Assembly (NCBI GenBank): GCA_934376945.1
Contig: CAKRPI010000016.1
Span: forward strand, 1 to 29,208
Direction of reading: 5' to 3'
DNA length: 29,208 nucleotides
Source: an uncultured Lachnospiraceae bacterium
GTDB taxonomy: Bacteria; Bacillota; Clostridia; Lachnospirales; Lachnospiraceae
Both the position numbers and the translations under genes were made by a program. Numbering within the stretch: the first letter of the stretch is position 1; every line of letters starts with the position of its first letter. Shown piece by piece: positions 1,576 to 20,743 of the stretch. The notes below the pieces were generated by a model that saw only the letters and a list, made by a program, of their open reading frames with translations, did not search any database and was not told the DNA's origin.

Positions 1576-1603
1576 CTGCTGTAAAACGGACATTCGCAAT
1601 CCG
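1576..1603 (+). repeat. 28-bp dispersed repeat, copy 1
   Basis: This matches 2885-2912 at 26 of 28 positions in the same orientation; the core is CGGACATTCGCAATCCG. The two copies bracket aroC. The core can form a small hairpin (CGGA with TCCG). Here it runs directly into the palindromic repeat at 1619-1652. Confidence 0.8.
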
Positions 1604-1618
1604 CTTCGCTACTTACTC

Positions 1619-1652
1619 ATGAACGCAGTCGCTTCACGACCTGCGTTCAATC
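1619..1652. repeat. Palindromic repeat, short form, at the 3' end of aroC
   Basis: Arms GAACGCAG (1620-1627) and CTGCGTTC (1641-1648) enclose GTCG/CGAC-type pairing, giving about 11 bp with one bulge. It is the short form of the element at 9-130, lacking the 89-base insert. It lies just beyond the aroC stop codon, so on the minus strand it could help end that transcript, although no clear T run follows. Confidence 0.75.
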
Positions 1653-6269: not shown

Positions 6270-7538
6270 ATGAAAAAACCATTCGTAACAAAAGAAAAGC
6301 TGGAAGAGATCATCAAAACTTATCCAACACCATTTCATCTCTATGACGAAAAAGGGATTCGCGAAAATGTAAAGGAGCTGTATGATGCCTTTTCCTGGAA
6401 TAAAGGCTATAAAGAGTTTTTTGCAGTAAAAGCTACGCCAAATCCATTTTTGATCAACATCCTGCATGAATATGGCTGTGGCTGTGACTGTTCCTCCATG
6501 ACAGAACTGATGCTCTCAGAAGCACTTGGAATTACAGGGCACGATATTATGTTCTCCTCTAATGATACTCCGGAGGCAGAATTCAAAAAAGCTGCTGACC
6601 TTGGCGGTATCATCAATCTCGATGATATCACGCATATTGAAAAAGTAGAAAACGCCGTTGGATATCTTCCAAAAACCATGTCCTGCCGCTACAATCCGGG
6701 TGGACTGTTTAAAATCAGCAATGATATTATGGATAACCCAGGGGATGCCAAATATGGAATGACTACACAGCAGATCGAAGAGGCCTTTCGTATTATGAAA
6801 GCAAAAGGAGTAGAAGAGTTTGGCATCCATGCGTTCCTTGCAAGTAATACTGTAACCAACGACTATTATCCTCTTCTCGCAAAAGTTCTTTTTGAACTGG
6901 CAGTAAAACTGCACAAATCAACCGGCGCAAAAATCAAATTCATTAATCTCTCTGGCGGCATCGGTATCCCCTATCGTCCTGACCAGGAGAAAAATGACAT
7001 CCGCGCTATTGCAGAAGGCGTACGAAAAGTGTATGAAGAAGTGCTTGTCCCTCAAAATATGGGAGATATTGCCCTGTATACTGAGCTTGGCCGGTATATG
7101 CTCGGCCCGTATGGCTGTCTTGTCACAACTGCAATCAACGAAAAGCATACTCACAAAGAATACATTGGTGTAGATGCATGCGCAGTCAATCTGATGCGTC
7201 CAGCTATGTATGGTGCATATCATCATATTACAGTTATGGGCAAAGAAAATGAGCCTTGTGATCATACGTATGATATCACCGGCTCTTTATGTGAGAATAA
7301 CGATAAGTTTGCAATTGACCGGAAGCTTCCGAAGATTGACATGGGAGATATTCTCGTTATTCACGATACAGGTGCTCACGGTTTTTCCATGGGATATAAT
7401 TACAACGGAAAGCTGAAATCAGCAGAGATCCTGTTAAAAGAAGACGGCAGTTTCCAGATGATTCGCCGTCCAGAAACTCCTCGTGATTATTTTGCGACTT
7501 TTGATTTTTGTGATATTCTGAAGAATATGAAATATTAA
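6270..7538 (+). CDS. lysA: Diaminopimelate decarboxylase
   Basis: A 422-residue fold-type III PLP decarboxylase. It fits the diaminopimelate decarboxylase family, which converts meso-diaminopimelate to lysine in the cytoplasm. Visible features: the PLP lysine in FFAVKATPNP (K54), GIHAF (H187), the glycine-rich INLSGGIGIP (about 226-233), YTELGRYMLGPYG (E272), the C-terminal active-site Cys in GSLCENNDKF (C341), and AHGFSMGYNYNG. The wording differs from the classical enzyme (ICESGD, GAYGFSM), matching a divergent clostridial branch, so activity on a related substrate cannot be excluded. The start at 6270 is chosen over the ATG at 6264 because GAGGAG (6256-6261) is 8 bases from the former and only 2 from the latter. 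A structured 68-nt repeat begins at the stop codon. Confidence 0.85.
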   Translation: MKKPFVTKEKLEEIIKTYPTPFHLYDEKGIRENVKELYDAFSWNKGYKEFFAVKATPNPFLINILHEYGCGCDCSSMTELMLSEALGITGHDIMFSSNDTPEAEFKKAADLGGIINLDDITHIEKVENAVGYLPKTMSCRYNPGGLFKISNDIMDNPGDAKYGMTTQQIEEAFRIMKAKGVEEFGIHAFLASNTVTNDYYPLLAKVLFELAVKLHKSTGAKIKFINLSGGIGIPYRPDQEKNDIRAIAEGVRKVYEEVLVPQNMGDIALYTELGRYMLGPYGCLVTTAINEKHTHKEYIGVDACAVNLMRPAMYGAYHHITVMGKENEPCDHTYDITGSLCENNDKFAIDRKLPKIDMGDILVIHDTGAHGFSMGYNYNGKLKSAEILLKEDGSFQMIRRPETPRDYFATFDFCDILKNMKY

Positions 7539-7606
7539 GATGCCAGGGGCAAAAGCCTGAAATCGCGATGTGCTTGCACAGGAGTGGTTTTATGGCTTAA
7601 TGCCCC
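7539..7606 (+). ncRNA. 68-nt structured repeat, copy 1 (after lysA)
   Basis: This matches 20416-20483 at 64 of 68 positions with no gaps. It folds into one long hairpin: GGGGCA/TGCCCC, AAGCC/GGCTT, AAATCGC/GTGGTTT (with G-U pairs), and TGTG/CACA capped by a CTTG tetraloop, separated by small internal loops. The four differences from copy 2 keep pairing. There is no T tract after it, so it is not a standard terminator. It may be an RNA element, a 3'-end stabiliser or a mobile palindrome; I do not recognise the family. Confidence 0.7.
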
Positions 7607-7663
7607 ACCTCCAATCCAGCTCACCAGAGCGTGAAGATCTACGTCAGAGATTTTTGCCGTGCA

Positions 7664-8383
7664 TCACATAAAAACCTTAACTATCCACAGACAAGTCAGG
7701 TGCAATGGATAGAACAAATAAAAAAACCATTTTGCAAATCCACTTTTCCGCACACTTCTTTTTCCATTATAAAAAAATACAAGCAGCACACCGGAAACCA
7801 AAATACCGACACCTCCGAAGAGACCGTGGAGTACAGCCAATTCCCAGGAAACGGTTTGTGCATACTCTGTCACAAGTACAAGGACAAACAAAAGATAATC
7901 TGCTGCAAAGGCATATAATAGTTTTCTGCCTGAGCCATATGTAAAAGAAAACAGGAGCGTAAATGCAGCTGCAAGCCCTCCCCAGTCACAGATGCCCGTC
8001 GCAAGTGCAAGCAGACAGACACAAAAGCTTCTTTTTCCAGGATCCATAATCCATTCCTGACAAACAAGAATCAGAAAGCACAAAAACAGAGTAAACAACA
8101 TATTCAGCTGATGAATTTCAAGTGCTCCCTGATACGGTATCTGTGAAGTGAGCGCAAAGAATAACAGGCGCTGTCCATATTTTTTTTTCGAATGCGTATG
8201 ATGATATCCTTCCACCAGAAAATAACACATCGTGACAGCCGTAAAATAACCGATTGCCACGCAGATTTCGTAGTTCCAGGATCCTTCCTGTAAAAATACA
8301 TGTGCCAGATGATTCAGTGTCATGGCCAGCACTGCCATACCTTTTAACGCTTCCTGATTTAACTTTTTTTCTTCTTTTTCCAT
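7664..8383 (-). CDS. TraX family membrane protein
   Basis: A 239-residue integral membrane protein. The N-terminal LNQEALKGMAVLAMTLNHLAHVF, followed by FYLVEGYHHTHS-like and RLLFFALTSQIPYQ segments, is characteristic of the TraX family (related to membrane acyltransferases; the founding member acetylates F pilin). Seven to eight hydrophobic segments extend to the C-terminus, ending FYPLHLTCLWIVK, also typical. In clostridia, family members are chromosomal and unconnected with conjugation; no transfer genes are nearby here, so the name should not be read as a plasmid function. The acyl acceptor is unknown. AAAGGCGG sits about 8 bases before the start. It has its own promoter (8510-8538) and converges on lysA. 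Confidence 0.8.
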   Translation of the reverse strand: MEKEEKKLNQEALKGMAVLAMTLNHLAHVFLQEGSWNYEICVAIGYFTAVTMCYFLVEGYHHTHSKKKYGQRLLFFALTSQIPYQGALEIHQLNMLFTLFLCFLILVCQEWIMDPGKRSFCVCLLALATGICDWGGLAAAFTLLFSFTYGSGRKLLYAFAADYLLFVLVLVTEYAQTVSWELAVLHGLFGGVGILVSGVLLVFFYNGKRSVRKSGFAKWFFYLFYPLHLTCLWIVKVFM

Positions 8384-19273: not shown

Positions 19274-20398
19274 ATGTCAGGCAAAAACGGAAGAATCACC
19301 GCATATATTAATAAAAAAGCAATTGCCGCAAATTTCCGGAATATGAAAGAAAACATCAAAGACGGAGTAAAAATGATCGCAGTCGTAAAAACGGACGGCT
19401 ATGGCCACGGTGCGGTACAGATTGCACAAATTGCAGAGCCGTACGATTACATCTGGGGCTTTGCCGTGGCGGCAGTAGAGGAGGGGCTTGAACTGCGCGA
19501 GGCAGGGATTACAAAACCGATTCTTGTACTCGGCTATACCTTTGTACAGGATTATCCGGTTATGATAAAAAACGGGATCCGACCAGCCGTCTTCACAATG
19601 AAAATGGCAGAAGAGTTTGCTGCAGCCGCCCATGTACTCGGTGTAAAAGCTCCGATCCACATTGCAGTTGATACCGGTATGTCACGTATCGGCTTTTCTG
19701 ACTGCGAAGAGAGCGTACATATCGTCAGTGCCATCAATCGTATCCCTGAACTGACCATCGAGGGAGCCTTCACTCATTTTGCAAGAGCAGATGAAACGGA
19801 TAAATCAGCCGCTCTGCAACAGTATCAGCGCTTTAATGGTTTCTGTCGCAATCTGGAGCACGCCGGCGTAAAAAATTTTCTCCGTCACTGTTCAAACAGC
19901 GCCGGAATTCTGGAGCTTTCTCAGACCCATATGGATATGGTGCGCGCCGGAATCACCATTTATGGAATTTATCCTTCCGATGAAGTTGCAAGAGATATCC
20001 GGCTCTATCCGGCAATGGAATTGAAATCCCATATTGTATACATAAAACAGATTGTCAGAGGAACCTCCATCAGCTATGGTGGTACGTTTACTGCGGATCA
20101 CGACATGCGCATTGCCACAATTCCGGTTGGATACGGAGACGGATATCCACGCAGTCTGAGCAATAAAGGAAGTGTCCTGATCCGTGGCAGACGGGCGCCG
20201 ATTGTCGGAAGAGTCTGCATGGATCAGTTTATGGTCGATGTGACAACAATTCCGGCAGAACAGCTCGATGAAGTGACACTTCTTGGAAAAGATGGAGAAG
20301 AGGAGATTACTATTGATGAACTCGGCGCACTTTCCGGTCGTTTTCCATACGAATTTGTCTGCGATATCGGAAAACGTGTACCACGCATCTATTTATGA
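19274..20398 (+). CDS. alr: Alanine racemase
   Basis: A 374-residue PLP-dependent racemase that interconverts L- and D-alanine for peptidoglycan. The PLP lysine is in IAVVKTDGYGHGA (K39; many enzymes have VVKADAYGHG), VDTGMSRIGF follows at about 132-141, the second catalytic residue is the Tyr of TSISYGGTF (Y268), and TIPVGYGDGYPR and GRVCMDQFMVDVT close the active site. Length and domain order (TIM-barrel then beta domain) are normal. AGAAGGAAC lies upstream of the ATG. The gene follows nnrED by 68 bases and is followed by a 345-base repeat-rich gap before mazF. It could be a sibling serine/alanine racemase, but no extra membrane domain is present. Confidence 0.95.
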   Translation: MSGKNGRITAYINKKAIAANFRNMKENIKDGVKMIAVVKTDGYGHGAVQIAQIAEPYDYIWGFAVAAVEEGLELREAGITKPILVLGYTFVQDYPVMIKNGIRPAVFTMKMAEEFAAAAHVLGVKAPIHIAVDTGMSRIGFSDCEESVHIVSAINRIPELTIEGAFTHFARADETDKSAALQQYQRFNGFCRNLEHAGVKNFLRHCSNSAGILELSQTHMDMVRAGITIYGIYPSDEVARDIRLYPAMELKSHIVYIKQIVRGTSISYGGTFTADHDMRIATIPVGYGDGYPRSLSNKGSVLIRGRRAPIVGRVCMDQFMVDVTTIPAEQLDEVTLLGKDGEEEITIDELGALSGRFPYEFVCDIGKRVPRIYL

Positions 20399-20415
20399 CA
20401 AAACCATAAAATGAT

Positions 20416-20483
20416 GATGCCAGGGTCAAAAGCCTGAAACCACGATGTGCTTGCACAGGAGTGGTTTTATGGCTTAATGACCC
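20416..20483 (+). ncRNA. 68-nt structured repeat, copy 2 (after alr)
   Basis: Second copy of the element at 7539-7606, same orientation and same length. Helices: GGGTCA/TGACCC, AAGCC/GGCTT, AAACCAC/GTGGTTT (fully canonical here), and TGTG/CACA with a CTTG tetraloop. The outer helix shows a two-sided change relative to copy 1 (G-C there, T-A here). It starts 18 bases after the alr stop codon. Confidence 0.7.
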
Positions 20484-20507
20484 GCCACGATATGCGAATA
20501 TCTGGCA

Positions 20508-20539
20508 GGATTGTGGGAGTATGAAGTACGGAACAATCC
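20508..20539 (+). repeat. Short hairpin next to the 29-bp repeat
   Basis: GGATTGT (20508-20514) and ACAATCC (20533-20539) can pair; the right arm overlaps the 29-bp repeat. Part of the cluster of palindromic elements between alr and mazF. Confidence 0.55.
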
Positions 20540-20563
20540 GTAAGGCATCTTTTGACCTTAATA
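20535..20563 (+). repeat. 29-bp dispersed repeat, copy 2
   Basis: This matches 3980-4008 at 28 of 29 positions. Here it is followed by a strong hairpin at 20573-20603, and its CTTTTGAC can also pair with GTCAAAAG at 20579-20586. Confidence 0.8.
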
Positions 20564-20572
20564 TCAAATGAT

Positions 20573-20603
20573 GTGAGTGTCAAAAGTAAATTTTGCCACT
20601 CAC
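20573..20603 (+). repeat. Hairpin in the alr-mazF gap
   Basis: GTGAGTG and CAAAA (20573-20585) pair with TTTTG and CACTCAC (20591-20603): 12 bp with one T/C mismatch and a 5-base loop. There is no T run after it, so it is not a clear terminator. Apart from these repeats, I see no gene between 20399 and 20743. Confidence 0.65.
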
Positions 20604-20743
20604 TGATGTAACCGGATTGCTCCATTGCTATGCAATTCCCGCATAAAAACCATTTTATAATCTTTCGTCAGGTGAATACACAAAGGAAACAGGGAAATAC
20701 TGATCTTAGAACAAAAAATCCTTGTGATCGGAGTGTGAAGTTT

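Follow-up and report, generated by a model that had tools for sequence, protein, structure and literature searches.

A worn copy of Clostridiales-1 RNA (RF01699) behind lysA in a Lachnospiraceae genome, and the probable mobility of its family

Two copies of a known RNA family in the window

In the 29,208-nt stretch of Lachnospiraceae DNA analysed here (the window), two closely similar 68-nt segments lie just behind protein genes: copy 1 (7539-7606) starts at the base directly after the lysA stop codon (TAA 7536-7538), and copy 2 (20416-20483) starts 17 nt 3' of the alr stop. Recounting gave 64 identical bases of 68, as the original prediction had it, the four differences falling at exactly positions 11 (G/T), 25 (T/C), 27 (G/A) and 65 (C/A); outside the 68 nt the two sequences differ. 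The common fold that had been described, with its CUUG loop closed by a G-C pair (tetraloop G-CUUG-C), was also recovered, the same structure being predicted for both copies at -31.6 and -32.5 kcal/mol (z -4.5 and -5.9 against shuffles, with 0 of 200 shuffles as good for either copy). Projecting the fold of one copy on the other left 21 pairs unchanged, with two one-sided changes, one two-sided change and no broken pair, so that pairing is indeed preserved at all four substitutions; these four changes prove little alone, since randomly placed substitutions, which break ~2.2 pairs on average, also reached a minimum of 0 over 500 draws.

The element had been proposed as an unrecognised structured RNA, an idea displaced by the comparison with Rfam that had been suggested at the same time: a single match above cut-off was found in the window, to Clostridiales-1 RNA (RF01699), at 20415-20550 (90.6 bits, E 3.1e-19; gathering cut-off 48 bits). 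Copy 2 thus shares both sequence family and fold with RF01699. Copy 1, searched as the stretch from 7538, scored 29.6 bits (E 1.3e-4 in a 501-base search) and so falls under the cut-off, though its 64/68 identity to the 5' part of copy 2 marks it as an RF01699 derivative; it scored 35.7 bits (E 1.4e-8) with covariance model R1, which was built here from 29 rows, copy 2 being one of them. In the RF01699 architecture P1 closes P2, P3 and P4. Copy 2 has all four, with a P3 ~30 nt shorter than in relatives, and the fold of 20412-20550 gave z -8.2; copy 1 is a truncated derivative in which no P3 or P4 can be recognised and what remains is the 5' strand of P1 with P2. The 68-nt element is therefore a real repeat but not the full-length one, because copy 2 continues through two further hairpins to 20565. 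What lies behind lysA is a worn copy of an already known RNA family (Table 1).

A third gene end in the window carries a piece of the RF01699 family: on the minus strand at 1591-1645, ~37 nt behind the aroC stop codon, a hairpin is followed by a P3 core, for which the window scan gave no Rfam match at the cut-off of that family. Directly behind the right direct repeat of copy 2, at 20573-20603, lies a small hairpin (GTGAGTGTCAAAAGTAAATTTTGCCACTCAC) resembling the inverted ends of the element, possibly a nested mini-element.

Table 1. Coordinates of RF01699-related features in the window
Feature	Position	Strand	Evidence
Copy 1: P1 5' strand (GATGCC) and P2 hairpin	7539..7606	+	64/68 to copy 2; RF01699 29.6 bits; model R1
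Diverged 3' part of copy 1	7607..7665, 3' end uncertain (7665 to ~7684)	+	Inserted relative to the G324 lysA-traX junction; weak Rfam alignment to 7666
Copy 2: 150-bp element, RF01699, with shortened P3	20416..20565	+	Rfam 90.6 bits; 3' end from inverted and direct repeats
P1 5' strand, pairing with 20544-20549; also outer part of the 5' inverted end GATGCCAGGGTCAAAAG	20416..20421	+	Fold, Rfam alignment
P2 hairpin, CUUG loop	20423..20483	+	Fold
P3, shortened, without the GAG.A.GUAG part conserved in relatives	20484..20506	+	Fold, alignment of relatives
P4 hairpin GGAUUGUGGGAG...CGGAACAAUCC	20508..20539	+	Fold, Rfam alignment
3' inverted end TTTTGACCTTAATATC	20550..20565	+	Inverted-repeat and direct-repeat analysis
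Target-site duplication, left, AAATGAT	20409..20415		Direct-repeat test
Target-site duplication, right, AAATGAT	20566..20572		Direct-repeat test
Partial relative: P3 module ATGAGTAAGTAGC-GAA-GCGGATTGCGAATG, ~37 nt after the aroC stop	1591..1621	-	R1 19.5 bits, E 3.6e-4

The RNA fold is kept by compensatory change

From 65 full copies we kept 29 that were less than 90% alike (alignment A1) for a covariation check of the kind that the original prediction had proposed. Standard pairs filled 97.1% of the cells, and 23 of 27 pairs had two-sided changes; this pair count leaves out P1 and most of P2, because the alignment is poor there. The covariation score was 0.527, against 0.200 for shuffled alignments and at most 0.115 for slid structures. 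Many copies with stem-breaking substitutions, a result that had been named as refuting the prediction, were not seen among those counted, all of which had been found by a structure model. For 17 matches from genomes outside A1, the same structure scored 0.604 against 0.199 shuffled (alignment A2), a score that leans towards the structure because A2 is fitted to model R1. Compensatory changes thus preserve, across copies, the fold in which P1 closes P2, P3 and P4, and the selection on the folded form that had been suggested from two copies is strongly supported by this family-wide covariation and by the ortholog projections given below.

Inverted ends, direct repeats and empty sites

The Rfam model does not span the whole DNA element: the P1 3' strand is followed, often with a short insert between, by TTTTGACCCCAACATC, which repeats the start GATGCCAGGGTCAAAA in inverted form. 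Terminal inverted repeats of this kind (GATGCCAGGGTCAAAAG at the start against the consensus CTTTTGACCCCAACATC at the end) are found in the family and in copy 2, and many intact copies start with GATGCC and end with the inverted copy of their own start, the Rfam model ending 15-35 nt before the 3' end of the element in inverted-end copies (L002 aside). In copy 1 the 3' inverted end is not recognisable.

Taking the element as GATGCC...CATC, we looked for direct repeats around the 65 copies with a detected 3' end (L002 and copies with no detected 3' end were left out). Exact 7-bp repeats stood at the predicted place in 29 of the 65 (shuffled pairings: mean 0.9, maximum 5 in 2000), and exact 8-bp repeats in six more; at least six of seven repeat bases matched in 36 of 65 (shuffled 5.4, maximum 14), and an earlier, looser version of the test had given 30 of 68 (shuffled 2.3, maximum 8). 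The 29 exact 7-bp repeats favour ATnnnAT, a palindrome. Copy 2 is flanked on both sides by AAATGAT. Two results count against a mobile element, namely that 30 of the 65 copies had neither an exact 7-bp nor an exact 8-bp repeat, and that no clean 7-bp repeat could be seen by eye at copy 1.

The nearest genome found, G324 (lysA 84% identical), has lysA and traX back to back with the element absent, and so provides an empty site for copy 1. Among 30 lysA loci scanned with the family model the sole match was a weak fragment in G325. The alr-pemK interval lacks the element in nine of the ten genomes that have both genes, G324 included, and in G323 it holds an independent copy of a different subfamily on the opposite strand.

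Two observations concern the gene ends at these lysA loci. In the window, the stop codon of traX, which is convergent with lysA, lies at 7664-7666 within the inserted sequence, and in G324 traX appears by eye to continue into the lysA end; the insertion (region 7607-7690) altered the 3' end of traX. The fragment in G325 (locus L078, 1369-1415; 16.8 bits, E 0.008) lies close behind lysA.

Of the 47 genus genomes, 43 have the family; no more than 47 candidates were scored, and a single genome yielded up to 44 copies. It occurs in at least 161 of 299 genomes in a sample across the bacterial family, presumably Lachnospiraceae (nine candidates scored in most), and in at least four of 398 in a phylum-wide sample (six candidates scored), all four of which were already in the family-level sample. 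A scan of genome contigs with a strict P4 pattern gave one locus. Plasmid searches with the surroundings of copy 1, the insertion-sequence end and copy 2 gave no match, and viral contigs yielded no locus when searched with alr, a P2 pattern or either of two patterns for the insertion-sequence end. Eight short records from human faeces, filed as 'Bacteriophage sp.' and lacking annotation (MT837342.1 and others), carry pieces of the element; they may be bacterial DNA. In the Lachnospiraceae MAG RUI212 (L001 3153-3463), two full-length RF01699 copies stand head to tail, two bases apart.

With both window sites empty in G324, and with the inverted ends, direct repeats and copy number, we conclude that the RF01699 family is a miniature inverted-repeat transposable element (MITE), and that the element behind lysA is very probably (at about 0.85 by our estimate) a decayed copy of such a non-autonomous element carrying the RF01699 RNA. 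Copy 1 is probably no longer mobile. As part of this explanation, the fold is presumably kept because the transcript, folding just behind a stop codon, would shield the mRNA or tune coupling to the following gene, so that an insertion would be cheap or even helpful for the host. A mobile palindrome had been one of the original suggestions, and it is the one borne out: the ends are inverted, direct repeats of 7-8 bp flank the element, sites are empty in relatives, copies are numerous, and an insertion sequence described next has the same ends. In the open-licence literature we found no statement that RF01699 is a transposable element.

A candidate mover

A search with the end pattern of the element found, in genome G315 of the same genus, a complete 1875-bp insertion sequence enclosed by the ends GATGTTGGGGTCAAAAG and GATGTCGGGGTCGAAAG and an 8-bp repeat (GTCTGTAT). 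The original prediction had held that a match to an insertion-sequence end would speak against it; such a match is what these ends provide. The G315 transposase has DUF772 and DDE domains and its best match is NCBIfam IS1182, at 115.9 bits; because this lies below the curated cut-off of 270, we grade the element as IS1182-like only, alike in its best-matching transposase family and domains and unlike in its score.

The family is probably moved by an IS1182-like transposase, which would act in trans on the element. The transposase was matched at 1e-20 in only four of the 47 genus genomes, so that many element-rich genomes have no visible mover; such movers may be repeats lost from the draft assemblies, or the mover may be gone. 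Transposases in G330 and G335 are 59-60% identical to that of G315, with ends that are similar but match less well, and no exact direct repeat was seen around these two IS1182-like elements, which counts against mobility. G341 has two kinds of contig end, numbering six and seven, that resemble the opposite ends of an interrupted insertion sequence (GATATTGGGGTCAAAAG and GATATTGAGGTCGAAA); 7 or 8 bp are common to both members in five pairs of these contig ends, and no transposase was seen in that genome.

Short derivatives and a divergent subfamily

Genome G322 has 64-66-bp elements made up of P1, P4 and the 3' end. Among 14 of these, hand-picked from ~20 such matches (L175 being the same site as L208), 7-8-bp repeats were present in seven, a count that stands beside no shuffled control; four had no repeats (L204, L205, L210 and L211) and three no recognised 5' end (L206, L207 and L209). 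Since such derivatives still carry repeats, it seems that the element can do without P2, P3 and the inner portion of its 5' inverted end. Some further copies (L214-L216) keep only P1 and P2, like copy 1.

A subfamily (L041, L043, L051 and L054) has quite different P1 ends (CGTAAAAGC...GCTTTTACG) around an unchanged P3/P4 core, and no 7-bp repeat was found in these four.

Comparison with known small repeats

The closest parallels are known from other bacteria, and the likeness is judged from published descriptions. For Streptococcus pneumoniae, Croucher et al. (2011, PMC3049150) describe BOX, RUP and SPRITE as small dispersed repeats, BOX being modular and folded when transcribed. BOX and RUP are thought to be moved by resident insertion sequences, for which that paper proposes ISSpn2 and IS630-Spn1 as partners, where the family described here has an IS1182-like element. 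In the same account 58 coding sequences overlap BOX, and 36 of these take their stop codon from the repeat; the pneumococcal repeats are also overrepresented between convergent genes. In the Bacillus cereus group, bcr1-bcr3 are described as high-copy, MITE-like repeats often found in untranslated regions or inside operons (PMC3446304, PMC6542083), and resemble the present family in copy number and MITE-like nature. RF01699 is best described as a MITE whose RNA fold covaries strongly, behaving much as pneumococcal BOX and Bacillus bcr1-bcr3 do.

An Rfam entry filed as an sRNA, for which we found no statement of function, can thus be re-read as a mobile element that is widespread in one of the major families of gut bacteria, and a likely transposase is now supplied for it. 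Together, this transposase and the 64-66-bp derivatives with target duplications make mobility directly testable.

Copies abutting stop codons, and alternative readings

The two window copies lie behind genes for PLP enzymes (lysA and alr), and the original prediction had remarked on both this and their closeness to stop codons. The closeness recurs in many copies of the family, but behind many kinds of gene, and the PLP-enzyme association is therefore rejected. In genomes G262 and G739, which belong to one genus, and in G208, copies have no visible inverted tail and abut the upstream stop codon. Of the 16 copies from these genomes that score at least 66 bits, 15 have the first base of that stop between -4 and +6 relative to the start of the element, and a possible start codon lies 17-46 nt behind the Rfam 3' end in 10 or 11. 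Adding four weaker copies from G262 and G739 (L302, L304, L306 and L307, with stops at -13, -14, none and none) changes the count to 15 of 20, one of them (L306, 50.3 bits) exceeding the Rfam cut-off. Judged from translations, some of the neighbours are presumably rpsH-rplF, rnr-smpB, purF-purB and groEL. Across the 20 copies 7-bp repeats were at chance level (two of 20, against 1.5 shuffled, maximum 5), which counts against mobility there. In G208, a second match (L258 2937-3097; 26.9 bits) contains a terminator-like hairpin and overlaps the 3'-most part of the following gene in that operon.

Three loci are common to G262 and G739 (L259/L300, L263/L299 or L298, and L265/L301). One sequence of each pair was folded alone and its fold projected on the other, with 500 random placements of the substitutions as controls. 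Two-sided changes numbered 6-10, against averages of 1.1-4.0 for the random placements, and broken pairs 6-20, against 17.6-27.2. Two-sided changes lay above every one of the 500 controls in seven of eight directions, L263 to L299 equalling the highest, and broken pairs lay below every control in six of eight, the exceptions being L263 to L299 and L263 to L298. Another comparison, in which the structures were predicted from the same pair, gave no broken pairs in four ortholog comparisons and one in the paralog pair L298/L299; the single-sequence projection is the more independent check because only one sequence is folded. The compensatory excess indicates that the fold is being kept at these fixed places, and the family looks domesticated at stop codons in this one lineage. 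Stop-abutting copies common to two species offer a clean place to ask whether the host took over the RNA fold of a transposon.

These copies bear directly on a reading in which the element is above all a stop-abutting 3'-UTR or intercistronic element, selected for mRNA protection or translational coupling, with mobility only its means of spread. The regular placement in G262, G739 and G208 agrees with it, and for bcr3 there is a precedent in the co-transcribed genes with longer mRNA half-lives reported in PMC3446304, whose authors warn against a firm conclusion about the cause. Inverted-end copies, however, have stops at both ends and in both orientations: a stop codon lay within 12 nt in 17 of 32 same-strand and 11 of 28 convergent cases, in a rough count that includes short open frames. 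Such crowding is what a preference for, or tolerance of, insertion there would produce, more than a function tied to orientation, and we hold selection of this kind as the main explanation to be possible, at distinctly less than even odds.

A transposable element and a stop-codon RNA might also be two lives of one RNA family. It would be a DNA element mobilised by an IS1182-like enzyme and also, in some Lachnospiraceae, a domesticated RNA fixed exactly at stop codons, some of them within apparent housekeeping operons, whose fold would have a cis effect on termination, on protection of the mRNA or on coupling to the gene that follows. We offer this as a tentative and rather doubtful proposal. 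If so, the transposon would be distributing a preformed regulatory RNA by which its own insertion is rendered harmless.

A conventional small RNA gene or cis-acting RNA, duplicated now and then, would be closer to the current classification. Rfam files RF01699 as type 'Gene; sRNA', and the table of Weinberg et al. (2010, PMC2864571) enters Clostridiales-1 as 'probably' an RNA, 'probably not' cis-regulatory and 'probably not' a switch. Strong covariation and the two-sided changes at the three loci common to G262 and G739 are what such an RNA should leave behind. An sRNA gene as filed, however, differs from what we find here, where dozens of dispersed copies are bounded by inverted ends and direct repeats, with empty sites and with ends common to an insertion sequence; nor were promoter-like sites near the copies more frequent than in shuffles (1 against 0.7, and 0 against 1.0). 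We consider a conventional RNA unlikely; for the copies in the genus of the window it is largely refuted, and it may still apply to the G262-type copies.

Two further possibilities can be set aside briefly. Stable hairpins directly 3' of stop codons would suit an intrinsic terminator or attenuator at the ends of lysA and alr, but the hairpins are followed by no U-run, no terminator-like site was found in 7400-7800 or 20350-20720, and some relatives lie between apparently co-transcribed genes; with no GC-rich stem followed by a U-run found at either copy, a terminator is rejected as highly improbable. Chance similarity or an assembly duplicate, for which only the small number of differences between the copies speaks, has practically no likelihood left, being refuted by the Rfam match and the matches throughout the genus, and by the divergence of the two sequences past the 68 nt.
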